NCBI GenBank assembly: GCA_004299305.1
Contig: SCPZ01000010.1
Span: 1-52,702, forward strand
Direction: 5' to 3'
Source of the DNA: Methylobacter sp.
GTDB lineage: Bacteria; Pseudomonadota; Gammaproteobacteria; Methylococcales; Methylomonadaceae
DNA: 52,702 bases
Under the pieces are notes generated by a model. The model saw nothing but the letters and a program-made list of their open reading frames with translations. It was not told where the DNA came from and did no database searches. The translations under genes were made by a program, and so were the position numbers. Positions 10,369 to 50,680 of the stretch are shown here, piece after piece. How positions within the stretch are numbered: the first letter of the stretch is position 1; the number at the start of each line of letters is the position of its first letter.

Positions 10369-10637
10369 TACTTTGCTCCTTAACGTGTCAAAAAGAGGAT
10401 CATGCCTGTTTATAAACGGCAAATCGATAGGAGCTTTTCCTGTTTTATTCCCTCTAACGGCATAGGGAAGTCTTCTCGGTTTATTCCGGTATTTTTCCCG
10501 CCGATTTCCAGGCTTATTCCTTAACGCTGCAAACAACCACTCCCGTACCATGAGCGCCTGTTCAGCCCTGCATCTCAATGAGGCATTGCAAACGTTTTGA
10601 TTGATTGCTTTGATAATACTTTACGCCTGATTTTGCC
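10369..10637. other. Upstream region of the response-regulator gene (host side of prophage)
   Basis: These 269 bp hold the 5' region of the mxaB-like gene, including its ribosome-binding AAGGAG at about 10376-10381. The minus-strand frame is open to 10578, giving a low-quality 70-residue N-terminal extension (basic, no recognisable domain), which I treat as untranslated. The regulator's promoter should lie here or be disrupted by the prophage border at 10638. No clear sigma-70 match stands out. Confidence 0.5.
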
Positions 10638-10663
10638 TTGCTATTGGAATAGTTGGACGCTTT
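10638..10663. repeat. Left prophage end (terminal inverted repeat)
   Basis: A 26-bp sequence beginning TTGCTATTGGAATAGTTGGA is exactly inverted at 48735-48760. Its inner half, TAGTTGGACGC, is the complement of GCGTCCAACTA, the core of further copies near the right end, so it is probably the outermost transposase-binding site. A TG start one base in (10639) fits Mu-type TG...CA ends. Confidence 0.9.
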
Positions 10664-10732
10664 TTCGGGATTTAGCGGGTTTTATTGGTTTTTATCGGGA
10701 TTTGTTTATAGGTATTTCAACGAGTTACGATA

Positions 10733-10830
10733 TTCCATAAAGCTCATTCCATAAAGCGCATTTCATAAAGCGCATTTCATAAAGCGCATTCCATAAAGCT
10801 CATGTCATAAAGCTCATTTCATAAAGCGCA
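10733..10830. repeat. Seven tandem 14-bp repeats near the left prophage end
   Basis: Seven head-to-tail copies of TTYCATAAAGCKCA (exact period 14 bp, only T/C, G/T and one other substitution between units) occupy 98 bp between the left end and the leftward repressor operon. The first copy starts about 95 bp from the prophage end. The last overlaps the 3' end of the 97-residue gene. Candidate roles are transposase or repressor binding, an enhancer-like site, or slippage expansion. There are no spacers, so this is not a CRISPR array. Confidence 0.9.
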
Positions 10831-11107
10831 TTAAATTATTAACGTAGCTGTACACTTTTGACCAGACCTGTTTCGTAGTTGCAGGGCTTATTTTTGCAAC
10901 ATTTTCAGGTTGTTGGTTTGTTATAGTTTTAGTGATGTGGATCGTATGGTTATAGGTAATATCACGCAAGTTAACGTGTACATTATTACCATTGATCTCT
11001 ATCGTTGCTGTAGGTTTAATCGGTGTTGCTTTGGTATTTAAATCTTCAGTCTGTTTCGTATTATCTTTAAACAACTGCACTACGTTATTTTTTATATCGT
11101 CATCCAT
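10814..11107 (-). CDS. Hypothetical protein in the repressor operon
   Basis: A 97-residue protein of unknown function. The N-terminus is acidic and amphipathic (DDDIKNNVVQLFKDN), the middle is beta-rich with VHVNLRDITYNHTIHIT, and the C-terminus is basic. It lies 9 bp downstream of the repressor gene on the same strand, so it is expressed in the lysogen. That position suggests a lysogeny or superinfection-immunity accessory function, which is inference only. AT-rich codon use matches the repressor and not the head and tail genes. The 14-bp repeats run into its 3' end. Confidence 0.65.
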   Translation of the reverse strand: MDDDIKNNVVQLFKDNTKQTEDLNTKATPIKPTATIEINGNNVHVNLRDITYNHTIHITKTITNQQPENVAKISPATTKQVWSKVYSYVNNLMRFMK

Positions 11108-11116
11108 GCATTGATC

Positions 11117-11542
11117 CTATGCAGCAACTGATTGTACAAGTCTTAAGAGAGACTGTTTTACATCGGGAGTTTGATCTTTAAATAAATCATAGACCGCCAT
11201 AATCAACTCGGCCTTTTTATCTGGATCCATCGTGCGGCGAGTCGAATGTAAACCCTCCTCAACTGTTTCTATCGCTAACGTTAGACGCTTGCTGTCTAAT
11301 CCTAAAGTCTGTGGCTCTACTGACTTTATTTTCAACATTTCGCCCTCGCCCGTTAGAAGCCAATTAGCATTAATATCGAAATATTCTATATATTTAACGA
11401 TTATATCCTCTGGAATTTTTTGCTTTCCGGCCTCGATGTCTTGTAAACGCTGCCTTTTTTCGTCTATAGCCGCAGCCACTGCCGTTATAGTCATATTTTT
11501 ACTTTCCCTTATCTTTCTGAATCTATTGCATATTTGCGACAT
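11117..11542 (-). CDS. Phage repressor, Cro/C1-type helix-turn-helix
   Basis: A 141-residue repressor candidate. The frame is open 20 codons further upstream, but the ATG at 11542 has GGAG six bases before it and begins just ahead of the DNA-binding domain. The HTH_XRE domain spans about residues 4-62 (RKIRESKNMTITAVAAAIDEKRQRLQDIEAGKQKIP) and is followed by YFDINANWLLTGEGEM, a signature of phage C1-like repressors. The C-terminal part is helical, with no LexA-type peptidase residues, so control would not be by RecA-driven self-cleavage. It is transcribed away from the early operon. Confidence 0.85.
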   Translation of the reverse strand: MSQICNRFRKIRESKNMTITAVAAAIDEKRQRLQDIEAGKQKIPEDIIVKYIEYFDINANWLLTGEGEMLKIKSVEPQTLGLDSKRLTLAIETVEEGLHSTRRTMDPDKKAELIMAVYDLFKDQTPDVKQSLLRLVQSVAA

Positions 11543-11579
11543 TAAGCACTCCAGGCGGGGGTCAATTAAAGAATATTTC

Positions 11580-11608
11580 TTGAAATTTATAGAAATAGTC
11601 AATAAAAT
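11580..11608 (+). promoter_or_regulatory. Early phage promoter and operator region
   Basis: TTGAAA at 11580-11585 and TAAAAT at 11603-11608 are separated by exactly 17 bp, a good sigma-70 promoter reading into the Ner-like and transposase genes. On the other strand a TTGACT lies inside this spacer, pointing towards the repressor, so the two promoters overlap. Nearby inverted words (ATTTCT...AGAAAT at about 11575-11596) are candidate repressor operators. Confidence 0.65.
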
Positions 11609-11639
11609 TTAGCCGTACATTTACACTGAGAATAAAACA

Positions 11640-11861
11640 ATGGCTGCACCAACGCAAGAGCAAATTGCACATGCGCTCGAAACTCGCGGGACTAATTTGT
11701 GTGCGTGGGCGAAGGAACGGGAATACAAATACACCACTGTCTACAACACTGTGCAGCGCTGGGCTGGACGCAATGATCGTACTCCGCACGGAGGTATAGC
11801 TAGGCAGATTATGAGCGATCTAGCGAGTTACATAGGCGAAGACGATGATTCAGTGGATTAA
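11640..11861 (+). CDS. Ner/Cro-like early DNA-binding protein
   Basis: A 73-residue protein, first gene of the rightward early operon. A compact helix-turn-helix spans about residues 6-60 (AHALETRGTNLCAWAKEREYKYTTVYNTVQRWAG), with a conserved-looking HGGIARQIMSDLA after it. In Mu the equivalent gene, ner, represses both early and repressor promoters during lytic growth. That role is inferred here from position and fold. The 3' end overlaps the transposase start by 17 bp. Confidence 0.75.
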   Translation: MAAPTQEQIAHALETRGTNLCAWAKEREYKYTTVYNTVQRWAGRNDRTPHGGIARQIMSDLASYIGEDDDSVD

Positions 11862-13998
11862 CTCTAGGGAGTTAGCAGACGTGCTTAATATAAATTGGTC
11901 GCATAGCAAACGCATAATCGCATCCGGCCATTACAAAGGCACTCCATTAACAACTCGCCAAATAAAAAGCAAAAAAGGCAAGCCCACTGCCTTGGTGTTG
12001 TGGGATACAAAAACCAACCAACCCGCCCAACCAGGAGATGATGCCGATGACCAGATCAAAACTACACCTTGCGATAATCTCGTTACAACAATCTCTGCAA
12101 CGTCTAACAGCGGCCCTGCAAGCCTGTCTGCCCAATCTGGACAGCGTATTGACCTTAACCTTGCCAATGCCCAGGCTAATACCGGAAATCACATTGACGG
12201 AGCTGATGTTAAGCCATCTGCACCGGCTGAAAACCCAAGCCTACTGCTACAAAAGAAAACAACAACGGTACTTCCGTTCAAAAATATGGCTATAGAGCCG
12301 GAGCAACCCGAGTTAACAGCCGAAACTTTACCGTTAGATACGGCGACCCTTACTGAAGACCAAACCAGCCAAGAGCCGCCCGATTTTGAAACGCTGTTGC
12401 ACCGTAAAGTTTGCGATAAAAAGAAAAGCACTCAGCGCTCGTTAAAGGCGTACTACAGAAAGCAATACGCCGAGACGGGAGAAATACCCGCCTCGTTAAC
12501 GGTCGCTGAAGGCCGCCGCTTTGCCGGGAAAAAAAGCACCCTCGATCAAGCCATACAAAACCGCTTTATCGACATGGTGATGAAATCAGCGGACCCGACC
12601 GACATCTTTAACTATTACACCAAAGGCACCCGAAAGGTTACCGTCTTCCATCCGCAATTGGAAAAAGAATTTGGCCGCAAAATCAGCATCCAGCAGCTGT
12701 ATACCGTTGTCCGGTCATGCAACTTAAAACGCTTTCTGGATATGGCCGACGATGAAGAAGATAGCCAAAAATTACCGAGCTTTTTTAAAGCCGAGCCAGT
12801 TGGAAAAATCGTGCAAATGGACGGCGTCGAAGCCGATTACATAGAGATCCTGGTTGACGGAAAATGGCGTAAACCGATCTGGATCGAGTTCTTTGATTTG
12901 GGCAGTCGCAAGCTACTGGCTATGCACGCTTATTTATCGGAAAGCAATGAAAACTCGGTCGATATATTCACCCGCTTTCTGATGGATAACGTATTCGCCC
13001 ATCAACAAATGAATATTCGCCCGGATAACGCCAAAGGCTTTTTAAACCTGAAGCGGCCTATTAAAGAATTGAACAACCGCTATGCCATTCCGAACGGCTT
13101 TACCTTTGTTGATGACTTCGCCCGTGCCGGAACGCCCAAGGATAAAGCGCACCTGGAAAGCTCGCACCGTGCGTTTCACAGCTACGAAGGCACTATCGTT
13201 AAGCATTTTAAAGACCAGATCGATAGCCAGTACAAAAAGCAAAAAAAGACCGGAAACCAGCTGAAAACCGTCACCGTGACCCGGCTTAACATCAGCCTGG
13301 ACGAACTGAATAACTCAGGCATTACTGCCGACTACATGCGCCAGCATAATCTAAATAAGCATCGATTTAGTGAAGATGGCGTACAGCGCAGCTGGGTGCC
13401 CGATGATCGTTGGAACGCGCACCTGGCTGCCAATCAGACGTTTAAATTTAAGCAGGAAGATATAGAACTGTGCAGGCGCTACGGCTACACCAAAGCCGCG
13501 GCCACCATCAGCAAAGACGGCACCATTACCTACCAAAAACGCAAATACAGCGTGGCTAATCAAGCGCTGTGGAGCCGTCACAGCTCAACCAAAGTCAAAG
13601 TCAGCCTGATTGACGATCACCTGGCCATCTTCAGGGACAGCGACGAAGGCGTGTATTTAGGCGACGCCTTAGCCCTGGTGGCGCCGGTTAAATCGGAAAA
13701 ACTCCTGGCCAAGGAAAAAGCCAAGGTCGTCAAGATTCATACCGACAACGAATTTTTTACCATCGTTGCAGAGCTAAAACGAGTCGGCATGATTGTTAAC
13801 GAGGACCGGCTTAAACAAATGCTGGCCGACGGCTTAACGTATGAAGCCATCAGCCAGTTATTGGTCGATAAATACGAACGGTACAGCCAAAAGCCGGGAA
13901 CCATCGTGCCTTTTAACCTATTTGCCTCGGATGTTAAAGAATGGCTGGGAGAAAACAAAGGTAAAAAGCTCATCCCTTACGCGGACGTAAAAGCATGA
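11845..13998 (+). CDS. MuA-type DDE transposase
   Basis: A 717-residue transposase (Mu A is 663). The N-terminus has a Mu-type DNA-binding module (NSRELADVLNINWSHSKRIIASG). The catalytic triad can be placed at D326 (QMDGVEADY), D394 (IRPDNAKG) and E438 (KDKAHLESSHR), with the spacing of 68 and 44 residues expected for an RNase H-fold integrase core. The C-terminal part would carry the beta-barrel and the MuB/ClpX contact region. It catalyses integration and replicative transposition. Residues about 60-180 are Thr/Pro/Gln-rich and look like a linker, which explains the extra length. Confidence 0.95.
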   Translation: MIQWINSRELADVLNINWSHSKRIIASGHYKGTPLTTRQIKSKKGKPTALVLWDTKTNQPAQPGDDADDQIKTTPCDNLVTTISATSNSGPASLSAQSGQRIDLNLANAQANTGNHIDGADVKPSAPAENPSLLLQKKTTTVLPFKNMAIEPEQPELTAETLPLDTATLTEDQTSQEPPDFETLLHRKVCDKKKSTQRSLKAYYRKQYAETGEIPASLTVAEGRRFAGKKSTLDQAIQNRFIDMVMKSADPTDIFNYYTKGTRKVTVFHPQLEKEFGRKISIQQLYTVVRSCNLKRFLDMADDEEDSQKLPSFFKAEPVGKIVQMDGVEADYIEILVDGKWRKPIWIEFFDLGSRKLLAMHAYLSESNENSVDIFTRFLMDNVFAHQQMNIRPDNAKGFLNLKRPIKELNNRYAIPNGFTFVDDFARAGTPKDKAHLESSHRAFHSYEGTIVKHFKDQIDSQYKKQKKTGNQLKTVTVTRLNISLDELNNSGITADYMRQHNLNKHRFSEDGVQRSWVPDDRWNAHLAANQTFKFKQEDIELCRRYGYTKAAATISKDGTITYQKRKYSVANQALWSRHSSTKVKVSLIDDHLAIFRDSDEGVYLGDALALVAPVKSEKLLAKEKAKVVKIHTDNEFFTIVAELKRVGMIVNEDRLKQMLADGLTYEAISQLLVDKYERYSQKPGTIVPFNLFASDVKEWLGENKGKKLIPYADVKA

Positions 13999-14186
13999 AT
14001 ACCTACGGCAAGCGCCCACGCCAGTATGCTGCCGAGATCATCGCCCTACCTACGCTTGAACAGCGCCGGAAGGCATTGGCACTGGTGCCCTGTGATTGGC
14101 GGGATTGGGTCAAAGAATACGTCGTCGATTACTTCGGCAAACAGCATTTTTTAACGCGTTATCAACAAACTAGGAGAACACGATGA
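13995..14186 (+). CDS. Small hypothetical early protein
   Basis: A 63-residue basic protein of unknown function, starting in a 4-bp ATGA overlap with the transposase stop and overlapping the next gene by 4 bp, so it is translationally coupled on both sides. It has an Arg/Gln-rich helical N-terminus (PTLEQRRKALALVP) and a Trp-rich centre (CDWRDWVKEYV). I recognise no domain. Position and coupling support that it is real. Confidence 0.65.
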   Translation: MNTYGKRPRQYAAEIIALPTLEQRRKALALVPCDWRDWVKEYVVDYFGKQHFLTRYQQTRRTR

Positions 14187-14440
14187 GCCAGTCACAACAC
14201 GCTAAAGACCTTAAAAAAAATAAACTTTTAACCTTACGAACTATCGCAGTCGATCAGGCGATGGCGCTTGAAAACCTGTTACGGCATATAGACACGGAAT
14301 CTAAACAACCCCCCGTTATCAATAAGTCGGAACTAGCCGAAGCGCTGGACTATTGCACAAAAATCCATGATCTGTTGCATGATTTTAGGCACACATTTCC
14401 GGTGCTTATCAGTGAAGACTTAGCCAATACCGAGCTATAA
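14183..14440 (+). CDS. Small hypothetical early protein
   Basis: An 85-residue, mostly helical protein between the transposase and the B-type ATPase. It starts with GGAGAACACG-ATG, a good ribosome-binding site, and overlaps the previous gene by 4 bp. No known domain is visible. It is followed 33 bp later by an intrinsic terminator. Confidence 0.65.
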   Translation: MSQSQHAKDLKKNKLLTLRTIAVDQAMALENLLRHIDTESKQPPVINKSELAEALDYCTKIHDLLHDFRHTFPVLISEDLANTEL

Positions 14441-14473
14441 ACCAACCCTTTTATCAGCGCTCTACCTCAACTC

Positions 14474-14496
14474 GCCCTCTACCGAGGGCATTTTTT
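14474..14496 (+). terminator. Intrinsic terminator between transposase block and ATPase block
   Basis: GCCCTC-TACC-GAGGGC followed by ATTTTTT: a 6-bp GC-rich stem, a 4-base loop and a six-T tract. It lies after the 85-residue gene and before the small membrane protein and B gene, so A and B expression could be uncoupled. With a short stem it may be leaky or an attenuator. Confidence 0.7.
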
Positions 14497-14521
14497 GACA
14501 CTGAAAACACACGAGGCGACC

Positions 14522-14713
14522 ATGAAACTAATCATGATAGACCAAGCACACAAAAGCCGCAGACGCACCTTGCCGACCGTCATTGAAGACCTGCTCTATG
14601 TCGTAGCAACCGTTATCGCCATCGTCGCCATGCTGGCGACCGTCGTCGATGTGATCAGCATCCCCGATAGCGCCCCGCACGCCATAAACAACCAACAGCC
14701 ATTACAGGATTAA
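14522..14713 (+). CDS. Small single-pass membrane protein
   Basis: A 63-residue protein read from the ATG at 14522. An upstream TTG at 14495 lies in the T-tract of the terminator and is unlikely as a start. A basic N-terminal region (HKSRRR) precedes one hydrophobic helix (about residues 24-46, YVVATVIAIVAMLATVVDVI) and a short polar tail, predicting inner-membrane insertion. Function unknown. It stops 3 bp before the ATPase gene. Confidence 0.6.
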   Translation: MKLIMIDQAHKSRRRTLPTVIEDLLYVVATVIAIVAMLATVVDVISIPDSAPHAINNQQPLQD

Positions 14714-14716
14714 CCC

Positions 14717-15340
14717 ATGTTTATCAAAGACCAGGCCCGGCAAAACTGCCTAAACGCCGTCAGCAGCCACATCCAGCGTAAAGACAGCCTGCTGATTACC
14801 GCCAACTACGGTTGCGGCAAAACCAGCCTGCTGAAAGAAATAAAAAACAGCCCGACCGTGATCCGGGTGCGCTCCCTGGGCAGCCAGTACCAATTATTAG
14901 GCCGAATAGCAGGCGTCAAAGAAGCCAACCCACGCCATAAAGACAAATACCTGGATTACCGGTGCGACCATCCCGTCACCGTCATCATCGACGAAGCCCA
15001 GCACTTGCCGCATAGCCTGTACCCGTACTTAAAAATCATCATGGACGCTGGCACCAGCATCATCCTGTCAGGCTTACCGGAACTGCACGACACCCTGAAA
15101 AACCGGCACCCGGACGTATTAAGCCGCCTGACCCATATTCAGCTGGAACCGCTCAGCGAAGACGACTTGTTTAGCTTGGTTAAAGACGACTTCGATGCCG
15201 ATGCATTCAGCGTCATCTACGGCTCAACCTATGACATGCGCATGATGATGAGCCACATTAAAAACTGCCGCGATTACATCAAAAGCAACAACCTGAAGAC
15301 AGTAGACATCGACACCGTCTTACAATTTATCAACGAATAG
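14717..15340 (+). CDS. MuB-type AAA+ ATPase, transposition target protein
   Basis: A 207-residue ATPase with Walker A at residues 32-37 (GCGKTS) and Walker B with D92/E93 (VIIDEAQH). LSRLTHIQLEPLS is typical of the MuB/ExeA-like ATPases, and a short C-terminal helical bundle follows. In Mu, B binds target DNA, stimulates A and confers target immunity. Mu B has 312 residues; this shorter form lacks the N-terminal helix-turn-helix appendage, as in several B3-like phages. Confidence 0.87.
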   Translation: MFIKDQARQNCLNAVSSHIQRKDSLLITANYGCGKTSLLKEIKNSPTVIRVRSLGSQYQLLGRIAGVKEANPRHKDKYLDYRCDHPVTVIIDEAQHLPHSLYPYLKIIMDAGTSIILSGLPELHDTLKNRHPDVLSRLTHIQLEPLSEDDLFSLVKDDFDADAFSVIYGSTYDMRMMMSHIKNCRDYIKSNNLKTVDIDTVLQFINE

Positions 15341-15348
15341 GGGGAACC

Positions 15349-15609
15349 ATGCCGAACCAGATCAACAAACTACAAGTCAGCAACCTATTGAATATCGATT
15401 ATGCAGCAACCAATCGGTTGATTGAAAATGACGCCCATTTTCCAAAAGCAGTCGGGAAAAAGTTAGGTACCGGGGGAGGCTTACTGTTCGATCGCGTAGA
15501 AGTGCAGACCTGGGCCACTCGCCATCAAAAGGGCTTTATCTCGATCCTGGCCCAGCAGGCCATCCAGGGCAAACTATGGCCGATCAACAAGCAGGCCAGC
15601 CATGGATGA
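15349..15609 (+). CDS. AlpA/excisionase-like helix-turn-helix protein
   Basis: An 86-residue protein with a winged-helix MerR/AlpA-like pattern: KLQVSNLLNIDYAATNRLIEND, FPKAVG and FDRVEVQTWATRH, as in small DNA-binding domains that select a helix by a trailing Trp. It lies 8 bp after the ATPase gene with a GGGGGAACC ribosome-binding site, and its 3' end overlaps the next gene by 8 bp. It probably regulates early phage genes or aids DNA transactions; the exact role is unknown. Confidence 0.6.
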   Translation: MPNQINKLQVSNLLNIDYAATNRLIENDAHFPKAVGKKLGTGGGLLFDRVEVQTWATRHQKGFISILAQQAIQGKLWPINKQASHG

Positions 15610-15790
15610 CGCCGATATAACCGAACGCCTAAGCGAAACCATCGCCAAGGCCAATCGCTATCAAAGCCGCAAAGATGAGCCGCAAGGCGTAGCCAATGGC
15701 CAATGCTGGTTTTGCGGTGAAGACGTAGAACCCGGACGCCGGTGGTGCAGCAAACAATGCTGCGATGACTGGCAAATAGAAACTAATTAA
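15602..15790 (+). CDS. Small zinc-finger protein
   Basis: A 62-residue protein with two cysteine pairs, CWFCGEDVEPGRRWCSKQCC, a zinc-ribbon of the CxxC...CxxxC type. The N-terminal half is helical (ITERLSETIAKANRYQSR). The arrangement resembles small DksA/TraR-like zinc-finger proteins of phages, but it is too short to classify. The start overlaps the preceding gene by 8 bp. Confidence 0.65.
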   Translation: MDDADITERLSETIAKANRYQSRKDEPQGVANGQCWFCGEDVEPGRRWCSKQCCDDWQIETN

Positions 15791-15800
15791 AGAGAACGAC

Positions 15801-16505
15801 ATGACCGAAGACGAACTTAAAAAAATAGCCGATAAAATAGCAAAATGCTTAGCGGTGGCCGCATCAACCAGCCCGGAAGAAGCCGAAATAGCCAAACGCC
15901 AGGCTAACGCCTTAATGGAAAAATATGGCTTAAATAGCAACGATGTAGCCGCCGCTGGCGTGCATGAAAAAACCAGCAAAACCGGTGGAAAATTTAATCC
16001 GCCAGTACATTTGGTCAGGCTTTCAGGATTAATCGCCAGCGCATTTGGCTGCGGATCCGTATTTCAGTCGGGCGGCGGGTTTAACGACAGCCTAAATTAC
16101 TTTATTGGCCCAGGGATAAAACCGGAACTCGCCGCCTATACCTTTGATGTCTTACGTAGACAGATAAGCAAAGACCGGAGCGCCTATACCGCCACCTTAA
16201 AGCGTTATAAACGGGAAAATAGAATCCGCATGGCCGATCTATTTTGCAACGCTTGGGTAACCCGCATAGCCAGGCAAGTCCATGAATTCGCCGGGTCGGA
16301 ACAGGACAGGACCGCCATTAATGCCTACAAACAAAAACGCTGGGGCAAAGCCTTAACTAAAGATGCGCGTAACAGCGCCCAACCTAAAAAAGACTCCGAC
16401 TGGCAAGCCGATGTAGCCGGTGCCCAGGCGGCCAGTGACGTATCGCTGCATAAACCCGTACAAGCCAAACACGGCAAAGCCATCACCGATAGGAGCGCAT
16501 TATGA
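15801..16505 (+). CDS. DUF2786-domain phage protein
   Basis: A 234-residue protein whose N-terminus (about 4-45, IADKIAKCLAVAASTSPEEAEIAKRQANALMEKYGL) is the DUF2786 motif found in phage and plasmid proteins. The region after it (about 60-180) is the usual partner domain with FIGPGIKPELAAYTFDVLRRQ and FCNAWVTRI. Function is unknown. It has a good ribosome-binding site (AAAGAGAACGAC) and overlaps the next gene by 4 bp. Confidence 0.8.
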   Translation: MTEDELKKIADKIAKCLAVAASTSPEEAEIAKRQANALMEKYGLNSNDVAAAGVHEKTSKTGGKFNPPVHLVRLSGLIASAFGCGSVFQSGGGFNDSLNYFIGPGIKPELAAYTFDVLRRQISKDRSAYTATLKRYKRENRIRMADLFCNAWVTRIARQVHEFAGSEQDRTAINAYKQKRWGKALTKDARNSAQPKKDSDWQADVAGAQAASDVSLHKPVQAKHGKAITDRSAL

Positions 16506-16696
16506 AAGCCAAATACACCATCGAGCTTTTCGACCTACCCGAAACCCCAGACGGCCAAACCATCGGCTATCGGGTCATCAGCAATGACGCCAACCTATTG
16601 AGTATTACCGATGCCGACTACCTGATGCATTCCCTGACCGAAACCCTGTCGCGCATCGCCCAGGTCGTACCCATCCCAACACCGATAGGCGCATAA
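16502..16696 (+). CDS. Small hypothetical early protein
   Basis: A 64-residue protein beginning in a 4-bp overlap with the DUF2786 gene. It has a short beta-rich N-terminus (YTIELFDLPE) and a helical C-terminus (YLMHSLTETLSRIAQ). No domain recognised. The tight coupling on both sides (the next gene starts 2 bp after its stop) supports that it is translated. Confidence 0.6.
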   Translation: MKAKYTIELFDLPETPDGQTIGYRVISNDANLLSITDADYLMHSLTETLSRIAQVVPIPTPIGA

Positions 16697-16698
16697 CC

Positions 16699-17031
16699 AT
16701 GGCTACACAAATTGAATTCGACGACATCGAAACCCTTAGGGTTTCAGAGCTGAAATTCGGCGCATTGGGTTGGCGGCTGGCCATCATCATGACCGACAGC
16801 ATGGGCAACCGTATTGACCTGTCATTAAAAACCAGCCACGACGCCGTCCTGGACAAACTAAAACCGGAAACACCGGTTAATGCCGAATTATTAGCGGCAT
16901 CCAAACTGGCGCTGCCATTAATGAAGGCCTTCTTTCAAACCAAAGATGGAAAAGCAACCATAAAGCTATTAGAACAAGCCATCAACCAAGCCGATAGCTA
17001 TCACCCAGCCGCCTTAGGACACCAACAATGA
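16699..17031 (+). CDS. Hypothetical early protein
   Basis: A 110-residue protein of unknown function with alternating beta strands (ALGWRLAIIMTDSMGNRIDLSL) and two C-terminal helices. It overlaps the following DUF3164 gene by 4 bp. No catalytic motif seen. Confidence 0.6.
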   Translation: MATQIEFDDIETLRVSELKFGALGWRLAIIMTDSMGNRIDLSLKTSHDAVLDKLKPETPVNAELLAASKLALPLMKAFFQTKDGKATIKLLEQAINQADSYHPAALGHQQ

Positions 17032-17738
17032 GCCCCAAACAACGCTTAGAAAACAGCCTACAAAAAATCAAAGCCCTGTATCAGCATGTTACCGAGATCA
17101 AAAAAGACGAAGGATTCCCCTTGCTGTCTGATGGAAAAGGTCGGCTTTGTCCGGTTAGCATCATCAGCGACATCGACCTGGCCAGAAATAACCTGGTCAA
17201 CAACCGCAATGCCCGCGCCCAGGAGCTATCCCTACTGATCGAGCAATTTAAAGCCGAAACCTTCGCCGACATCGACGCCTTTATCGACATCAGCAACAGC
17301 GAACACGGCGGAAAAATCGGCATCGTCAGCGAAAACAGCAAGCGCAAAGCCTGGAAAGGCAACATCCAACTGATCAACTACAGCGCCACCCAAAAAATAA
17401 ACTTAAGAATCAGCGACAAAATCGCCTTTAGCGAAAAGCTAAACAACGCCATGGAAAAACTGCAAGGCTTGATTAAAGCGCATAGCAGCGATATAGACGA
17501 CATCATCAAAGTCCTGATTAATGAAGCCTTTAGAGTCGATAAAACCGGCTATATCGACACCCAAAAAATACTCGAACTGCGCCGCTACAAAATCAACCAT
17601 CCGGTCTGGAAGTCAGCTATGGACGACATCGCCGAAAGCATCCAGATCGTCGGCAGCAAATCGTATTTGCAATTCTGGTTCCGGGACAGCCCGGACGCAG
17701 AATGGCAGCCCATCGCCTTGGATATAGCGAGATTGTAA
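17028..17738 (+). CDS. DUF3164-family protein
   Basis: A 236-residue protein matching the DUF3164 pattern found in Mu-like and B3-like phages: a helical N-terminal half with RNNLVNNRNARAQELS, the AFIDISNSEHGGK stretch, and a C-terminal SYLQFWFRDSPDAEWQPIALDIA. Function unknown, with a suspected role in early DNA metabolism. The stop overlaps the next start (TAATG). Confidence 0.75.
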   Translation: MSPKQRLENSLQKIKALYQHVTEIKKDEGFPLLSDGKGRLCPVSIISDIDLARNNLVNNRNARAQELSLLIEQFKAETFADIDAFIDISNSEHGGKIGIVSENSKRKAWKGNIQLINYSATQKINLRISDKIAFSEKLNNAMEKLQGLIKAHSSDIDDIIKVLINEAFRVDKTGYIDTQKILELRRYKINHPVWKSAMDDIAESIQIVGSKSYLQFWFRDSPDAEWQPIALDIARL

Positions 17739-17968
17739 TGCGTATTTACGCAGAGGATTCGCAGCTTATTTTTGAATGCGACTATTGCGGGATAAAACAA
17801 AGCGTATCCCCTGCAAAAACGAAGCGGACATTCATGAAATCGCTAAATAGTTTCGTGAGGCAGCATGACCATACCTGTAAATGGACTAAGGAACGGAATG
17901 ATCGCATTAAATTAAGCGCTACGTTAGCGAGTGAAATAATTAAAAAAATAACCGAATCCTGCCATTAG
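17738..17968 (+). CDS. Small putative zinc-binding protein
   Basis: A 76-residue protein read from the ATG at 17738, which shares a base with the previous stop. It carries CDYCG near the N-terminus and HDHTC about 35 residues on, a possible single zinc site. More AT-rich than its neighbours, so it may be a recent acquisition. Function unknown. Confidence 0.6.
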   Translation: MRIYAEDSQLIFECDYCGIKQSVSPAKTKRTFMKSLNSFVRQHDHTCKWTKERNDRIKLSATLASEIIKKITESCH

Positions 17969-17972
17969 AGCC

Positions 17973-18536: not shown

Positions 18537-18537
18537 C

Positions 18538-18975: not shown

Positions 18976-19100
18976 CCCCATCGTTCCCACGCTCCGGCGT
19001 GGGAATGTAGGTAGCGACGCTCCAGCGTCGCGGTTAACAACGCTGGAGCGTGGGAACGATACAATCGCAATGTTGTTAAACAACGGTACGCACAGCGTAC
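18976..19100. repeat. Palindromic repeat cluster after mor
   Basis: Two nested palindromes (CGTTCCCACGCTCCGGCGTGGGAA type, and GCGACGCTCCAGCGTCGC) are followed by the right half of a GTAGGGTACGC-family unit (GTTGTTAAACAACGGTACGC). All are of families also seen in the host flanks. The first hairpin may act as the mor terminator. Confidence 0.75.
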
Positions 19101-19135
19101 ATGGCTAACCGGACCGCAACAGCGGGAGCAAGACT

Positions 19136-19390: not shown

Positions 19391-19397
19391 CAGCCCG

Positions 19398-19466: not shown

Positions 19467-19470
19467 ATGG

Positions 19471-19596: not shown

Positions 19597-19678
19597 CCGT
19601 ATCGCCACGGCCTAGCCTAAACGTTATACTTCGCCTTCCACGCATTCTGCGCGGCTTTTATAACAACAGAGAACCACT

Positions 19679-20065: not shown

Positions 20066-20080
20066 CAAAGTGCGTAGCCC

Positions 20081-43251: not shown

Positions 43252-43739
43252 TGCAACAGCCTGATTTTACCGATAACATCCCTTCAAGGGATGTTACCGG
43301 TCACACCACTACTCAGGATGCGCGAGCCGCCATTATCGCCGAAGCCCGCCGCTGGATTGGCGCAACCTGGCACCATCAGGCCTGCATTCCGTATCAGGCC
43401 GTTGACTGCGGTCAGCTCCTGATCGATGTCTACGTCAAATGCGGCTTGATTGAGCGACCCGAGACCCTTTATTGTCCTCGCGACTGGGCGCTGCATCGTG
43501 ATGGCGAGCAGTATCTGCTCGATATAGTCGAGCAATACGCGCATCAAGTCGATGCACCGCTGCCCGGTGACGTGGCATTGTGGAGAATTGGCCGCGTGTT
43601 CAGCCATGCCGCTATCGTCATCGACTGGCCGACTATCATTCACGCCAATAGTGATGAGAACGTAACCGTCGCCGACGCGTCATGCTGCAAGCTAGCGCAA
43701 CGCGAAGTGCGTTTTTATTCTATTTTCGGAGATCGATAA
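43251..43739 (+). CDS. NlpC/P60-type tail peptidase
   Basis: A 162-residue protein with the NlpC/P60 catalytic triad: C53 (YQAVDCGQLLIDVYVKCG), H119 (VFSHAAIVI) and H131 (PTIIHAN). Such tip-associated peptidases cut peptide cross-links of peptidoglycan during DNA entry. Placement after DUF2163 and before the hub is the standard order in GTA-like tails. Ends on the next start. Confidence 0.9.
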   Translation: MQQPDFTDNIPSRDVTGHTTTQDARAAIIAEARRWIGATWHHQACIPYQAVDCGQLLIDVYVKCGLIERPETLYCPRDWALHRDGEQYLLDIVEQYAHQVDAPLPGDVALWRIGRVFSHAAIVIDWPTIIHANSDENVTVADASCCKLAQREVRFYSIFGDR

Positions 43740-45028
43740 TGTCATTATTTGGCGGCGGAAATAGTAGCGCCGGGGCGGAACAACCCGCCATATCGGCCCT
43801 ATCCATTCAAACAGCCGGATTCGGCGTGGCCATGCAGATATGCTGGGGCACTAACCGGGTATCGCCAACATTGGGCTACACCAGCAATTTTATCGCCACG
43901 CCACATCAGTCAAGCGGCGGCGGAAAAATGGGCGGGGGCAGCGGCGGAAGTACGACTTATACCTATTCCTCGACCATCCTGATGTTTGTCTGCGAGGGCG
44001 AAATCAGGAACTTCGGCAAGGTATGGAAGGATAAAGACATTTACGCGGATATTAGCGCCGCCGGGTTTACTTTTTCCAAAACAGGCACCTATCCGCAAAC
44101 TAACTGGGGCTTTTTAGATACCAATCACCCAACCGAAGCGCTGGCCTATAACGGCACCGCCCTGGTTGCGGCCAGCGGCTATGCGTTAAGCGGCAGCGCC
44201 ACCCTGGGCAACCATTCAACCGAAGTGGCGGGCCGCTGTTTAAGCGCTACGGATACCGATCAAAACTACACCGATGCGCATATTAGAGATGTGCTTAGCG
44301 ATTTTTTGACCAACCCGCATTTCGGCGCTATCGATGCCAAAACAGCGGTGTTGACGCTGGACACCGACCGAATGCACGACTATTGCCAGGCCTGCGGCTT
44401 CCTGATCAGCCCGGTGCTGAGCAGCCAAAAACCTGCGCATGAGTATTTAACCGAATGGGCTACCGTCGCCAATGCCGGAATAGTCTGGAGCGAGGGCAAG
44501 TTAAAGTTCATCCCCTACGCCGACGAATCGTTTACCGGCAACGGCGTAACATTCACCGCCGACAACACTATTCGCTATGCCTTCGATGACGATAATATCG
44601 CTGAACCGATCAAACCTAAGCGTAAAAAGTCGATCGATGCATTTAATAGTGTCCCATTTGAGTGTTTAGACCGAGCTAACGATTACAACAAATTCGCCGA
44701 TTCAGCAAAAGACCAGGCATCAATAGAACAACCTGGCGTAGGCTTAAGGCCAGCCAGCACGATGGTCCTGGACTGCATCTGCCTGCCCGGCATCGCCATA
44801 CAAATAGCCCATATCCAACTGGTGCGCGGCCTGTACATCCGCAACGAATACACGATCCAAACCTGGTGTGATGCCGATCTGCTGGAACCGCTGGATTTTA
44901 TCAGTATCACTGACGTGGGTTTAGGCTTGAATGCCGCCCGCTGCCGGATAACCGCTATCGAAGATGACCAGGAAGGTAAATTGACTATCACTGCCGAAGA
45001 AGCACCGGAGGGCGTCTACAATGGCTAG
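43739..45028 (+). CDS. Tail hub protein (gpJ-like, short form)
   Basis: A 429-residue protein read from the ATG at 43739. Features: a Gly-rich N-terminal loop with GGGKMGGGSGGSTTYTYSSTILMFVCEGEI, MHDYCQACGFLISPVLSSQKPAHEYLTEWATVANAGIVWSEGKLKFIPYAD, and a C-terminal domain with VRGLYIRNEYTIQTWCDADLLEPLDFISITD. This is the phage-tail-3/GTA hub family. It sits under the tube as the baseplate hub and is followed by the tip gene with an 8-bp overlap. Confidence 0.82.
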   Translation: MSLFGGGNSSAGAEQPAISALSIQTAGFGVAMQICWGTNRVSPTLGYTSNFIATPHQSSGGGKMGGGSGGSTTYTYSSTILMFVCEGEIRNFGKVWKDKDIYADISAAGFTFSKTGTYPQTNWGFLDTNHPTEALAYNGTALVAASGYALSGSATLGNHSTEVAGRCLSATDTDQNYTDAHIRDVLSDFLTNPHFGAIDAKTAVLTLDTDRMHDYCQACGFLISPVLSSQKPAHEYLTEWATVANAGIVWSEGKLKFIPYADESFTGNGVTFTADNTIRYAFDDDNIAEPIKPKRKKSIDAFNSVPFECLDRANDYNKFADSAKDQASIEQPGVGLRPASTMVLDCICLPGIAIQIAHIQLVRGLYIRNEYTIQTWCDADLLEPLDFISITDVGLGLNAARCRITAIEDDQEGKLTITAEEAPEGVYNG

Positions 45029-48000
45029 AGGCGATTATCAACGTGCCGGGGGGCATAAGCCGAATAATACCTACGTCCCGGCACTGGTCAACCCGCCGAC
45101 GATTTTTATTGCCCCGTCGGAACACACGGTTTCGGGCGGCGAAATCTGGATGGCGGTATCGTGCAATGACACTAACTATGGTGGTTGTGTTATCCATGCA
45201 TCAAACGATAACTCGCATTATTACATCATTGGCCGGATGCGCAGTAAATCAACCCACGGCGTGTTGACATCGGCATTGGTCAGCGCTACCGGAACCGATA
45301 CCGCGCACACGCTTTCAGTTGATGTGCATTTATCCGGTGGAACCATTGACGGCGTCAGTCAGACTACAATTGATACCCATGACTCCTTATGCTATGTCGG
45401 CGGCGAGTTTTTAGCCTATAAAGATGCAGCGCTCAGTTCTGGTATCGGTTACTACAACCTTAGCCATTTACAGCGCGGTTTGTACGGATCAACGCCGGGA
45501 GCCGTCAGCGGCGCGCCGTTTGTGCTGTGCAATGAGCAATTATTTAAATACCGGTTTAACCGCAATCTGGCCGGTAGCACCATCTATTTAAAATTCCAGG
45601 GCTTCAACGGTGTAGAGAGCGGTTATCAGGACCTGGCGAGCATTACCGCCTATCCGTTTTATGTCAGCTCTGACGGTGGCATCAAAGCGCTGCAAAGCGA
45701 CATCACTTTGCTGCAAGAGGCTATCGGGGCGCTACCGGGAGCGCCTAGCAATAATCCGGTTCCCAGCGGAATTCAGGTGATTAACCGGGTCAACAGCACT
45801 CGCGAGATAACCCTGGTTTGGGATGCGTATAGCCAAGGGCCATTAAAAGCCAATTATTTAGCGGTATTTTTTAAGCCGATTTCCACACCTGGCGATGTAA
45901 TAACATCAACAGATCCATCACGATTGGTTTCAGTACATGCTACATCAGCCGTTTTTAGCGGCCTTAGCCCTGATGTTGAGTATAAATTCGGCATTGCCGC
46001 TGTCAAGGTAGTCGGCAGCACCGTTGAATCAACGGCTATTATTCAGCCGACAGCCTTGCCCGATTGGCTGGTTGCACCAGGTTCCGTCGATTACACCGGG
46101 AAAATAGGCGGGATTGAGGTCGGCACCGTGTTGTTCGACCTGAATGCGGCGAAGGACGATATTAACTCAATATTGGCGGATGGTAAGTTGTCGCCGCTCG
46201 AAAAGAACGGCATTCGTAAAGAGTGGGAAGGGATAGTCGATGAAAAATCACTACTGGATGCACAGGCGGACGCTTACGCAATAACCGCTAAAAAAACGGC
46301 TTATGACAATGCGTATACAGAGCTGGGCAATTATCTCAATAACACCACGGCGCCGAGCTGGAATGCGGCAACCATTCCGCAGTGGATTAATGACACCAAT
46401 ATTACGCTACTAACCACGCTGCCTGGGGCGACGCCGGCAGCGGCAAAAACGGCGTATCGCGCGGCCTGGGTGACGTATTACACAGCCAGAATTGCGTTAA
46501 CACAAGAGATCGCCGATCGGGCCAAAGCGATTGCCGATGTGGCTCAAACGGCGGCGGCTACTGCGCTTAGTGCTGCAAGCACGGCACAAACAGCGGCCAA
46601 CACGGCAAATCAAGATTTAGCCACTATCGCCAAAGACGGCATATTGTCAAAAATCGAGAAAAAACGTGTCATCTTGGACTATAACGCGATTCTCGATGAA
46701 AAAGCCGACATTGATGCGAAAGCGGCTGATATGGGCTTGGCCGCCGATGCGTTGAAAACCGCTTATGATGATTCAATCGCGCACCCAAGCACAGGACTGA
46801 CCGCGTATCTGGCGACATTAACCAGCCCTACTGCCTGGAATGACGTATCCGATGCGACCGGCGGAGCAACAACTATTGTCGGCTCTACCTTCCGGGCTAA
46901 ATTTAAGGCCGTCTACACAGCACGACAAGCATTACTCAATGCTATTACAGCTGAAGCGGCTAAACGGGCGGTTTGGGGCGATAACATCACAGGTAAGCCC
47001 GGAACTGTTGGCGGTTATGCCACGGATTTTGGCACGGCTAACTTTACAGGATTAATCACCGGATCGGCTGGTATTGATATTACCGGTACAGCTAGATTTA
47101 CAGGACTGCATAGAGATGCTGACGGTGTAGATGCTGCCGCAATAATGTCAAATGGCGGCAATGGAACTATCAATGGAGGTTATGGATGGATTAATGGAAC
47201 TTTAAATAATGGTCACGGCTACTTTGGGGCTTACTGGGGATTAGGCGCAGGGGGAGGTGTACGTGGGTTAGCCGCAGGTACGGGTGCAGGTGTGCTCGCT
47301 CAGAATGTGGGCCCAGGACCGGCATTAAGGGTTGAAGGGCCAATGGAGGTGACAAGCGGAACTAAGGTTGTCAATCTGAACGCGGATAAGTTAGATGACC
47401 TTAGCTCGCCATCGTATCTAAACGCGGAATTAAACCTGACAGCTAACGGCTATTTAACGAGTTTCAATCTAACTAATCCGTCATCGCCGACCGTGTTAGG
47501 GCATATAACCTTGGCAGGCATTGGCGCTGAAGCGGCAAGCAGTAAAGGCATGGCGGGAGGGACATGTCCGCTGGGCCTCGATATTAAAATAGATCCCATT
47601 TATCTGCCCGTTTCAATTACAGGACAGCTGCAATACCAAGGCGCACGGGACATGTCCGCAGCACTCCCCGCCGCATCATCAACCAATCATGGCTGGTATT
47701 ACATTACATCGGTCGCGGGCAATGGCTATAACATTGGCGACTGGGCTGTCAGCAACGGCGCATCGTGGGATAAGGTGGACAATACTGACGCAATCAGTTC
47801 GTTTAATGGACGGACAGGGGCGATTAACTTATTGGCCTCCGATATACCGAACTTAGATTGGAGCAAGATCTCTTCAGGAACACCATCCACTCTGGGTGGT
47901 TACGGAATCACCAATGCCCTTGCCGAAGGAAATCGTCTTTCGGAGATAGCTGTTGCGGGTTCTACTGCGCAAGCTACGGCCCGAGCTAACCTGGGTGTTC

Positions 48001-48563
48001 CTGGCAAGGCATCAAATGACACAATTGCAGCCAACTGGACATTCTCAGGTCAGCAAGCATTCACCTATGTTGGTGCAGCGCCGTTCACAGTTGCCAGTAC
48101 GATGCTTGTAATTAATCTAAATGCCGACCGACTTGATGGTCAAGACGGCGCTTATTATCTTGATTGCAGTAATTTTACGGGCACGTTAGCAGCAGCCAGA
48201 GTGCCGACGCTTAATCAGAATACAACAGGTAGCAGCGGCTCATGCACAGGAAACGCTGGAACAGTTACTAACGGTGTGTACACTACGGATAGAAATTCCA
48301 ACAGCGGTGCTGGCTTTGTAGGTGTAAGTGTAGGCTATAGAATTCAATTTAAAGATAGCTCGGGGCAGTTTATAAGCTTATTAGCAAATAATAATTCTAC
48401 GAGCAGGACTTATAATTTCCCTGATCTATCGGGTAATGTGGTGATAGCGGCCTCTGCATCCACAATAGGGACAGCGGTAACGGGAACTCACACCAATATT
48501 GTTAAATGGGTGCCGTACAGCGAAAGCGGGGTATTGTTAGGGTATCTTCCTGTATATTCGTAA
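45021..48563 (+). CDS. Tail tip / host-specificity protein
   Basis: A 1180-residue protein. The N-terminal 230 residues continue the hub fold (GEFLAYKDAALSSGIGYYNLSHLQRGLYGST). A fibronectin-III-like domain follows at about 250-345 (NSTREITLVWDAY...VSVHATSAVFSGLSPDVEYKFGIAAV). Then come two long helical repeats of about 150 residues each beginning DGKLSPLEKNGIRKEW and DGILSKIEKKRVILDYN. The C-terminal fibre has (V)INLNADKLD/LNADRLDGQDG repeats and a Gly/Ser tip. It carries the receptor-binding part and decides host range. Confidence 0.85.
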   Translation: MARGDYQRAGGHKPNNTYVPALVNPPTIFIAPSEHTVSGGEIWMAVSCNDTNYGGCVIHASNDNSHYYIIGRMRSKSTHGVLTSALVSATGTDTAHTLSVDVHLSGGTIDGVSQTTIDTHDSLCYVGGEFLAYKDAALSSGIGYYNLSHLQRGLYGSTPGAVSGAPFVLCNEQLFKYRFNRNLAGSTIYLKFQGFNGVESGYQDLASITAYPFYVSSDGGIKALQSDITLLQEAIGALPGAPSNNPVPSGIQVINRVNSTREITLVWDAYSQGPLKANYLAVFFKPISTPGDVITSTDPSRLVSVHATSAVFSGLSPDVEYKFGIAAVKVVGSTVESTAIIQPTALPDWLVAPGSVDYTGKIGGIEVGTVLFDLNAAKDDINSILADGKLSPLEKNGIRKEWEGIVDEKSLLDAQADAYAITAKKTAYDNAYTELGNYLNNTTAPSWNAATIPQWINDTNITLLTTLPGATPAAAKTAYRAAWVTYYTARIALTQEIADRAKAIADVAQTAAATALSAASTAQTAANTANQDLATIAKDGILSKIEKKRVILDYNAILDEKADIDAKAADMGLAADALKTAYDDSIAHPSTGLTAYLATLTSPTAWNDVSDATGGATTIVGSTFRAKFKAVYTARQALLNAITAEAAKRAVWGDNITGKPGTVGGYATDFGTANFTGLITGSAGIDITGTARFTGLHRDADGVDAAAIMSNGGNGTINGGYGWINGTLNNGHGYFGAYWGLGAGGGVRGLAAGTGAGVLAQNVGPGPALRVEGPMEVTSGTKVVNLNADKLDDLSSPSYLNAELNLTANGYLTSFNLTNPSSPTVLGHITLAGIGAEAASSKGMAGGTCPLGLDIKIDPIYLPVSITGQLQYQGARDMSAALPAASSTNHGWYYITSVAGNGYNIGDWAVSNGASWDKVDNTDAISSFNGRTGAINLLASDIPNLDWSKISSGTPSTLGGYGITNALAEGNRLSEIAVAGSTAQATARANLGVPGKASNDTIAANWTFSGQQAFTYVGAAPFTVASTMLVINLNADRLDGQDGAYYLDCSNFTGTLAAARVPTLNQNTTGSSGSCTGNAGTVTNGVYTTDRNSNSGAGFVGVSVGYRIQFKDSSGQFISLLANNNSTSRTYNFPDLSGNVVIAASASTIGTAVTGTHTNIVKWVPYSESGVLLGYLPVYS

Positions 48564-48580
48564 TCAATTCTCTGTCGGAG

Positions 48581-48655
48581 GGCGTCCAACTATTAGCAAA
48601 TAAAGTATTAAAAAACGAAAAAATCCAAGTTAACGGCGTCCAAGTATTAACAAAT
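48581..48655. repeat. Subterminal repeats at the right prophage end
   Basis: Two copies at 48581-48602 (GGCGTCCAACTATTAGCAAA) and 48635-48655 (GGCGTCCAAGTATTAACAAA), plus a shorter TCCAAGTTAAC at 48624-48634. All share the GCGTCCAA core with the terminal repeat and point the same way. They are the probable R2/R3-like transposase-binding sites of this phage. Confidence 0.85.
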
Positions 48656-48734
48656 TAATTTTTATTCGATTTTTGTAAAAAAAACAATAAATTCAATTGC
48701 TTATTAAAAATCGATTAAAAAATATTTTCACTGG

Positions 48735-48760
48735 AAAGCGTCCAACTATTCCAATAGCAA
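48735..48760. repeat. Right prophage end (terminal inverted repeat)
   Basis: Exact inverted copy of 10638-10663, starting AAAGCGTCCAACTATTCCAA and ending ATAGCAA. Host sequence leading to mxaF begins just after it. Confidence 0.9.
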
Positions 48761-48865
48761 TCATTTGATCAAGAAAGCTGGTTGTCTTACTTAAACTTTA
48801 TTGATACGCACGGGCTGGCTTTATAGCTTGATATAAGTACAACAATCATAACCCCTGGAGGAACT

Positions 48866-50680
48866 ATGCGGATTTCTAAATTCACCCGCACCGCTGTCGC
48901 ATCCGCTGTCTGTAGCGGCGCCTTGTTGTCGGTTTCGATACCGGCACAGGCCAACAAAGCCCTGGATAGACTGTCAAAAGAAGATACTAACTGGGTCATG
49001 CAGACCAAAGACTACGGTGCCACCCACTTTAGTGAAATGACCCAGATTAACGCGCACAACGTCCAGCATCTACAGCCGGTCTGGTCGTTTTCTACGGGCG
49101 TACTGAACGGGCATGAGGGCGGACCGCTGGTTATTGACGGCATCATGTATGTGCATACGCCCTTCCCTAACAATATTTTTGCCATCGACCTGGATCAGCC
49201 AGACAAAATCTTATGGGAATACAAACCCAAACAAAACCCGGCCGCCCGCGCCGTAGCCTGTTGCGACGTGGTCAACAGGGGCTTGGCTTATGCGCCCGCT
49301 GGTGATGATTACCCGGCGACTATTTTCCAGAATCAATTGGACGGCCATATCGTTGCGTTAAACGCCAAGACCGGCGAATTGCTGTGGAAAATGGAAAACT
49401 CCGATATTGCGATGGGCTCCACGCTGACCGTAGCGCCTTTTGTGGCTAAGGACAAAGTCATTGTTGGCAGCTCGGGCGCGGAACTGGGCGTAAGAGGCTA
49501 TGCCACCGCCTATAACATTAAAGACGGTAAACAGGCGTGGCGCGTTTATGCGACCGGTCCTGACGCCGACATCAAACTGGCCAAGGATTTTAACAGCGCC
49601 AACCCGCATTACGGCCAGTTCGGACTGGGCCTTAAAACCTGGGAAGGCGACGCCTGGAAAATCGGCGGCGGCACCAACTGGGGCTGGTATGCGTTCGATC
49701 CTGACCTGGATATGCTCTATTACGGCTCGGGCAACCCCGCGCCGTGGAATGAAACCATGCGCCCCGGCGACAACAAATGGACGATGACCATCTGGGGCCG
49801 CGACATCAATACCGGCGAAGCGAAATTCGGCTATCAAAAAACGCCGCACGACGAATGGGATTACGCCGGCGTCAACTACATGGGCTTATCCGAGCAGCTG
49901 GTTGACGGCAAAATGACCAAACTACTGACCCACCCCGACCGTAACGGCTTGGTTTATACCCTGAACCGCGAAAACGGCGACTTGGTCAACGCGTTTAAAA
50001 TCGACGATACCGTCAACTGGGTTAAAAAAGTCGACCTGAAAACCGGCCTGCCGGTTCGCGATCCTGAGTTTTCCACCCACATGGATCATGAAGCCAAAGG
50101 CATTTGTCCATCCGCCATGGGTTATCACAACCAAGGCATCGAATCGTACGATCCAAACAAGAAACTGTTCTTCATGGGCACCAACCATATCTGCATGGAC
50201 TGGGAACCGTTCATGCTGCCTTACCGCGCAGGCCAGTTTTTTGTCGGCGCGACGCTGAACATGTATCCGGGACCCAAAGGCACCTTGGGACAGGTTAAAG
50301 CGATGAATTCCGTGACCGGAAAATTCGAATGGGAAATCAAGGAAAAGTTTGCAGTCTGGGGCGGAACCACCGCAACCGCAGGCGACCTGGTTTTCTATGG
50401 CACCTTGGACGGTTACATCAAAGCGTTGGATTCACGGAACGGCAAGGAATTGTGGAAATTCAAACTGCCTTCCGGCGTTATCGGTCACCCGATTACTTTC
50501 GGACACAAAGGCAAACAATATGTGGCGATTTACTACGGTGTCGGCGGCTGGCCCGGCGTTGGTTTAGTGTTTGACTTGCAGGATCCTACCGCAGGTTTGG
50601 GCGCAGTCGGCGCGTTTAAAGAACTGGCGCACTATACGCAACAAGGCGGCGGTGTGATGGTCTTCGCATTGGGCTATTGA
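48866..50680 (+). CDS. mxaF: Methanol dehydrogenase large subunit (calcium/PQQ)
   Basis: A 604-residue periplasmic PQQ enzyme with a signal peptide ending AQA (about residue 29). It oxidises methanol to formaldehyde and passes electrons to cytochrome cL. The adjacent cysteine pair over PQQ is C132-C133 ([11 protein letters not shown]). The calcium-site Asn lies in [11 protein letters not shown]. The catalytic base is D332 in HDEWDYA; A334 two residues later distinguishes MxaF (calcium) from the lanthanide XoxF type, which has Asp there. Beta-propeller W motifs ([14 protein letters not shown]) are present. First gene of mxaFJGI, with an excellent GGAGG site. Confidence 0.98.

Follow-up and report, generated by a model that had tools for sequence, protein, structure and literature searches.

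The window analysed here, 52,702 bp in length, is an entire contig (SCPZ01000010.1, or C13) of a Methylobacter draft genome of 4.49 Mb in 144 contigs, and it carries a transposable prophage of 38,162 bp (10602–48763) between a response regulator gene (9712–10368, minus strand) and mxaF (48866–50680, plus strand), the gene for the large subunit of calcium methanol dehydrogenase (Table 1). The regulator, queried as 9712–10371, matches PF00072 (E-value = 5.9e-26) and PF00196 (E-value = 3.4e-11), and the pairing of a receiver domain with a LuxR-type helix-turn-helix (HTH) is what we take to be the domain make-up of MxaB itself. Its start is most likely, to judge from the sequence, the GTG at 10368–10366 behind AAGGAG; a longer open-reading frame (ORF) of 288 amino acids with a TTG start was rejected because of frame-breaking indels in that upstream stretch among relatives. 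The genes that follow mxaF (50762–52405) are, presumably, mxaJ, mxaG and mxaI, names assigned from gene order. A second pyrroloquinoline quinone (PQQ) dehydrogenase, 49% identical to MxaF and probably XoxF, is encoded on another contig (C100) of the same genome.

The regulator and mxaF stand head to head in 45 of 46 phage-free loci (17 from the same genus and 29 from named records, mostly Methylobacter and including M. tundripaludum SV96 and OWC-G53F); some loci are common to both sets, which together yield 28 distinct spacers from Methylobacter and its kin. A first-pass annotation of this DNA had predicted that the two genes would be divergent neighbours if the phage were removed, and these intergenic regions bear it out, the genes being adjacent and not far apart. 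The spacer measures 313–347 bp in 21 of the 28, and the gap counted from the first valine codon is 281–635 bp in the 27 named loci with an adjacent mxaF, across which MxaF is 85–99% identical (two matches, in L075 and L086, are partial). In those 27 of the 29 named loci the regulator gene lies upstream of and divergent from mxaF; in L066 the genes are also head to head, with mxaF cut by the contig end, and L085 is the exception, having the regulator and no mxaF in the 10.7 kb examined. In mxaF's place L085 (Methylococcaceae) has a large ORF that by eye resembles a TonB-dependent receptor. Kin of the regulator (69–84%) occupy the same location in four other genera (L087, L089, L090 and L091). 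The designation of the regulator as MxaB-type is upheld by its domains and by its position, which is that seen in Methylomicrobium buryatense. In that species the response regulator gene mxaB is placed upstream of the mxaF operon in divergent orientation, MxaB is reported to increase the expression of mxa and reduce that of xoxF, and the kinase MxaY, without lanthanum, to turn mxaB and mxaF transcription up and xoxF down (PMC5018670). The present locus differs from that one by the 38-kb prophage in between.

The exact limits of the prophage were obtained from the empty site. DNA of 22 other genomes of the same genus was searched, and the mxaF upstream region was recovered in 17 of them (no spacer came from G003, G006, G008, G017 and G018). 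Alignment to these phage-free loci stops at 10601 on the regulator side in all 17, and begins on the mxaF side at 48764 in 16 and at 48765 in one; the two flank alignments share a 6-bp overlap, TTTGAT. The symmetry of the phage ends gives a target duplication of 6 bp, which would be 5 bp only if the ends were uneven. The element starts with TGATTGCT and finishes with AGCAATCA, and thus has TG...CA ends. With the flanks rejoined, the spacer is 329 bp long (from 10372 through the ATG inclusive), so that no host DNA was lost, and 102 bp of original DNA (96 bp plus the 6-bp duplicated copy) stands upstream of the mxaF ATG. The site, the ends, the duplication and the absence of host DNA loss are practically beyond doubt.

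The first-pass annotation had put a prophage of 38.1 kb in the right place, between the minus-strand regulator gene and the plus-strand mxaF, and its figure of about 105 bp of original DNA before the ATG was nearly right, but the ends that it gave (10637 and 48761) were wrong: in the relatives the junction falls 36 bp to the left of the first and 3 bp to the right of the second, and those ends had matched an exact 26-bp inverted repeat (10638–10663 and 48735–48760) that is internal, not terminal. The left copy of this repeat is, by eye, a second site 36 bp inside, behind a diverged first copy. A rearranged flank, suspected from the missing duplication at 10637/48761, was dropped once the empty site revealed the 6-bp repeat. 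Compared with relatives, the right-end DNA gave short matches only, and the exact right-end 24-mer had none in IMG/VR; a weak match was seen at one other contig (C31) of the same genome.

Four blocks, A to D, were defined by conservation and placed by best match across the 28 distinct spacers, which are related sequences and not independent events. The distance between block B and block C (TTTTGATCAAG) is 82 bp in 17 of the 28 and 79–84 bp in 24, and that between C and D is 34–36 bp in 22. The A–B distance exceeds 100 bp in six spacers (113, 222, 236 or 302 bp in G004, G009, G010 and G021; 245 and 414 bp in L089 and L090), amounting to insertions of about 20 to 210 bp where block A is well placed. 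Apart from the phage, no insertion was found between B and C in the 24 measurable spacers, or between C and D where measurable; one occurs below D (in G016), and D stands 58–121 bp from the ATG in spacers in which it has no more than two mismatches. Among the 16 full 20-bp bins, the one across the junction is on average the best conserved (0.88).

The phage has cut inside conserved block C of this B–C–D arrangement upstream of mxaF. Block B is now 38 kb from mxaF, beside the regulator gene, and in this sense conserved sequence upstream of mxaF has been displaced, as first proposed; blocks C and D are still beside mxaF. On the mxaF side the duplication restores TTTGATCAAG, which departs from the 11-base block C at a single position, and block D is exact; beside the regulator gene, the closest match to block C has three mismatches. 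This restoration had been overlooked in the first-pass annotation. GTTTTGATCAAG was also found at two other places in the genome, where no methanol-related neighbour was recognised by eye in the ORF view; these were not informative.

We propose that the DDE transposase and its AAA partner would have cut the TG...CA ends and joined them to the two target strands with a 6-bp stagger, within the mxaB–mxaF spacer. Block D and the sequence below it most likely hold the core promoter, and B and/or C would be activator sites, so that mxaF in the lysogen would keep its promoter and lose part of its activator input. We would expect mxaF to be expressed at a lower level or to respond less to lanthanides, while XoxF would take over methanol oxidation and sustain it when lanthanides are available. 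The regulator gene retains 233 bp of native upstream DNA and is now also situated behind the phage repressor operon, from which read-through may reach it. Taken as a whole (a B3-type insertion in block C, B removed, and the activator input of mxaF partly lost), this is the best explanation of the locus, and one to which we incline slightly. For an altered control of mxaF by the regulator in the lysogen we see even chances, held down to that level because the A–B distance, too, is 89–93 bp in 22 of the 28 spacers.

That near-constancy of A–B is one of several points that weigh against the proposal. The B–C rule is broken in four of the 28 spacers (the C match is out of order in G019, L082 and L090, and the distance is 67 bp in L091), and D has three to five mismatches in six of the 22 spacers with a C–D distance of 34–36 bp (L077, L078, L084, L086, L089 and L092). 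Block A is poorly placed, with five or six mismatches, in L089 and L090, two of the six with A–B insertions, and the contrast in question would be one between six A–B insertions and none in B–C, among related sequences. With blocks C and D still next to mxaF, its activation may be unimpaired, and block B could serve the regulator. As regards the outward transcription considered below, the terminator scan used a simple consensus and would miss Rho-dependent ends, and promoter-like matches were no commoner than in shuffled sequence.

The main alternative is that the prophage is a neutral passenger, a possibility that we place some way below even. C, D and the sequence below them would then suffice for mxaF, the upstream blocks would serve the regulator, and the lysogen would regulate mxaF normally. 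The 102 bp of native DNA that stays, with the restored TTTGATCAAG and the exact block D, speaks for this, as does the position of C, some 35 bp above D and thus where an activator site would be expected to fit; moreover, A, B and C are all near-constant in spacing in at least 21 of the 28 spacers, so that spacing alone does not tie B to mxaF. The distribution of insertions (six of 28 between A and B, none in 24 between B and C) is, however, easier to understand if B works with C and D.

The phage could also act on its neighbours by transcription, since both of its outward-reading operons end at the phage ends. The late genes face mxaF (rightward), and the repressor operon faces the regulator gene (leftward); the latter operon, also without a detected terminator, had been missed in the first-pass annotation. 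A simple consensus scan found no terminator on the plus strand at 48450–48880 and none on either strand at 10370–11900; one terminator is present on the minus strand (48868–48847), and an AT-rich hairpin at the right phage end was equalled or beaten by 31 of 200 shuffles. The lack of a detected terminator in either outward direction makes read-through possible, and into the regulator gene of a lysogen we think it rather unlikely. If methanol dehydrogenase followed the state of the prophage, the repressor transcript would enter the regulator gene in the lysogen and the late transcript would enter mxaF on induction, and an immunity circuit that could serve such control is present (repressor, C4 RNA and antirepressor-like protein). 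Late transcription precedes lysis, however, so that mxaF expression at that time would hardly benefit the host. Transposable phages replicate by copying themselves, and clean excision on induction is neither known of them nor expected, which makes a reversible switch unlikely. This situation is different from that of phage regulatory switches, or active lysogeny, in which the prophage likewise sits in a host regulatory locus but is excised precisely by a site-specific recombinase, whereas the present phage transposes. Control by prophage state is improbable: the late genes do point at mxaF, as the first-pass annotation had it, with no plus-strand terminator found, but the effect on expression that it suggested is a reasonable conjecture and the tie to prophage state a doubtful one. 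A little less probable again is a rewiring of methanol oxidation in which read-through would drive the regulator while mxaF is cut from its distal block, so that the MxaF/XoxF lanthanide switch would depend on lysogeny and the strain would be pushed towards XoxF.

An assembly artefact joining unrelated sequences, conceivable in a draft of 144 contigs of which the window is one whole contig, has almost no probability, because a misjoin would not yield a 6-bp duplication exactly where all 17 relatives join, or complementary phage ends.

The lanthanide switch sets which methanol dehydrogenase methanotrophs use, and a limited literature search, covering parts of the sources, found no mapped DNA sites behind it in gammaproteobacterial methanotrophs; no prophage at mxaF was reported in the titles or opening lines of abstracts that the search returned. 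The insertion amounts to a natural promoter dissection, in which block B is parted from D and from the restored C, and the comparison to which it led yields a testable B–C–D arrangement upstream of mxaF. The event is of an ordinary type, and its place and the block arrangement that it revealed are of moderate interest.

According to a published account, transposable phages have genomes of 36–39 kb, usually have TG–CA ends, and duplicate 6 bp (B3) or 5 bp (Mu) of the target (PMC8705779). The traits of the Mu/B3 type found here are the length of 38,162 bp, the 6-bp duplication, the TG...CA ends, a DDE transposase, a TnpB/MuB ATPase and a Mor/C activator. The original label "Mu-like" was correct in naming a transposable phage; the phage is B3-type rather than Mu proper, because of the 6-bp duplication and a large terminase 70.6% identical to that of B3. 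With Pseudomonas phage B3 (Beetrevirus, a transposable siphovirus) it also shares a 38-kb genome, TG...CA ends and a weakly similar AAA transposition partner (BLASTP E-value = 5e-5 in a single comparison). It differs from B3 in that only four of 31 window phage proteins compared match at an E-value of 1e-5, that the early block (10602–23406, compared with the B3 record, L174) is inverted, and that its transposase has no significant similarity to B3 TnpA (best BLASTP E-value = 3.9); B3-type transposases are Tn552-related. Two genome layouts of transposable phages have already been named, according to the title of a reference, and in one related record (L187) the terminase-side genes and the transposase gene face in opposite directions. 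The order of left-facing repressor, small HTH protein, transposase and AAA partner is that of Escherichia phage Mu, in which Mor/C and the late genes also read rightward as they do here, whereas the duplication is 6 bp and not 5 bp and the similarity of the transposase to that of Mu is faint (hhalign probability about 1%, E-value = 0.057). In short, the methanotroph carries a B3-type phage that is nearly complete and whose transposase is unusual.

The transposase protein had no match in PHROGs, nothing meaningful in Pfam (best E-value = 0.18) or among PDB chains, and only a weak NCBIfam match, to an IS21 transposase (E-value = 0.023). We could not find it in 50,697 phage and 72,556 plasmid records, in 120 other relatives and 368 other genomes of the class, or in 44 IMG/VR records (a scan without a positive control), and an IMG/VR scan with the whole protein also returned nothing. 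Its core as query, on the other hand, retrieved four IMG/VR relatives, and D326, D394 and E438 are invariant in all five aligned sequences, three of which match the phrog_310 transposase (best E-value = 1.2e-10) while the window's own does not. A PDB profile search with the five-member alignment gave nothing meaningful; in the hhalign comparison with MuA, D326 and D394 fell against residues 269 and 336, which are presumably catalytic. Structure models were poor (pLDDT 37 from the single sequence; 51.7 from five rows, with a core of about 30), and the top Foldseek matches from such a model, to TnsB and CRISPR-associated transposon (CAST) chains and to IstA (E-value = 4.6e-4 to 0.065, TM about 0.1), would fit a Mu/TnsB-type enzyme and are given little weight. 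The protein is, by its invariant residues, a DDE enzyme of very divergent sequence; that it represents an entirely new family of transposases is made less plausible by the four IMG/VR relatives and by the alignment members that match phrog_310.

A PHROG match (E-value of 0.001) was obtained for 32 of the 40 phage ORFs scanned, with functions that include repressor, HTH, AAA transposition protein, Mor-like activator, antirepressor, holin, endolysin, terminase, portal, head, tape measure and tail. The ORF at 17973–18536 is in the position of GemA, before Mor, and matches only replication-initiation and primosomal families.

Table 1. Features of the prophage and of the mxaF locus in the window
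Feature	Position	Strand	Evidence or remarks
MxaB-like response regulator	9712..10368	-	218 aa, GTG start; receiver domain and LuxR/GerE HTH
Left part of original spacer	10369..10601		233 bp; block A at 10421, block B at 10513
Block B	10513..10526	+	CTTATTCCGTAACG, one mismatch in window; near-constant distance to block C in phage-free relatives
Left TTTGAT target duplication copy	10596..10601		Empty-site comparison
Whole transposable prophage	10602..48763		38,162 bp, TG...CA ends; empty-site comparison
Left phage end	10602..10663		TGATTGCT terminus and apparent diverged end site (judged by eye), then exact 26-bp inverted repeat 10638-10663
Small gene behind repressor	10814..11107	-	Reads towards regulator; no PHROG or NCBIfam match
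XRE-type phage repressor	11117..11602	-	Reads towards regulator; phrog_8 E 1.6e-12, HTH_19
Small HTH protein, Ner-like position	11640..11861	+	phrog_8503, phrog_925
Divergent DDE transposase	11845..13998	+	D326, D394, E438 invariant in alignment of 5
MuB/TnpB-like AAA ATPase	14717..15340	+	phrog_296 DNA transposition protein E 1.1e-12; AAA_22
Mor/C-like late transcription activator	18472..18975	+	phrog_836 E 5.9e-29
isrK-like RNA	20986..21063	+	Rfam RF01394, 51.2 bits, cut-off 50
C4 antisense RNA	21084..21166	+	Rfam RF01695, 66.7 bits, cut-off 45
Antirepressor-like protein	21216..21956	+	phrog_129 transcriptional regulator E 2e-47; phrog_63 anti-repressor Ant E 5.6e-7
Holin	22263..22685	+	PHROG (phrog_3427, phrog_181 for holin/endolysin pair)
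Endolysin	22876..23406	+	PHROG (phrog_3427, phrog_181 for holin/endolysin pair)
Inverted pair of end-type sites inside phage	23409..23468		1 + 2 mismatches to 13-base core
Terminase small and large subunits, portal	24196..27568	+	phrog_426, phrog_5909, phrog_145
Head, tail, fibre genes	28065..48563	+	Read towards mxaF; PHROG scans
Right phage end	48582..48763	+	Three end-type sites (48582, 48636, 48738), then AGCAATCA terminus
Right TTTGAT target duplication copy	48764..48769		Empty-site comparison; rebuilds TTTGATCAAG beside mxaF
Remaining mxaF upstream DNA	48770..48865	+	96 bp original; block D at 48798
mxaF, calcium methanol dehydrogenase large subunit	48866..50680	+	TIGR03075 676 bits, cut-off 480
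mxaJ, mxaG, mxaI-like genes	50762..52405	+	ORFs; DNA homologous to same place in L064

The isrK-like and C4 RNAs (20986–21166) lie directly before the antirepressor-like gene, here in a transposable phage, and this order of isrK, C4 and antirepressor is what we take to be the arrangement of a P1/P22-type immunity circuit. A C4 RNA was recognised in four of 30 other phage records searched, and the RNA search found none in B3 or Mu.

An inverted pair of end-type sites (23409 and 23456) is situated directly behind the endolysin gene. Such a pair was also seen in L189 (at 2855 and 2901, spanning 2855–2913), behind a homologue of the window endolysin, and L187 (about 5880–5950) has one exact site and, by eye, a degenerate partner beside a homologue of the window gene at 23477; both records belong to the same transposase clade. 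A scan of 86 sequences at up to three mismatches also returned a self-overlapping palindrome in L095 and a weak pair (3 + 3 mismatches) in L097, and did not call L187. The L188, L190 and L192 records had no site at up to two mismatches, but that gap may lie outside them or their sites may be different. In 30 shuffles of the prophage the mean number of site pairs at up to two mismatches was 0.03. The internal pair could be a transposase-binding site or an enhancer. Four viral contigs with an end-type site (L203–L206) were taken as chance occurrences, none of 31 window phage proteins being matched in the stretches examined.

Three further observations concern repetitive DNA in the window. The contig end behind the mxaI-like gene (52480–52702) gave no alignment to L064 and looks repeat-like by eye. 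A short stretch at 8692–8735 matches many places in this genome and in sister genomes, and is likely to be a small interspersed repeat. About seven tandem 14-bp units resembling CATAAAGCGCATTT occupy 10718–10846, close to the left end of the phage, and overlap the end of the gene at 10814.

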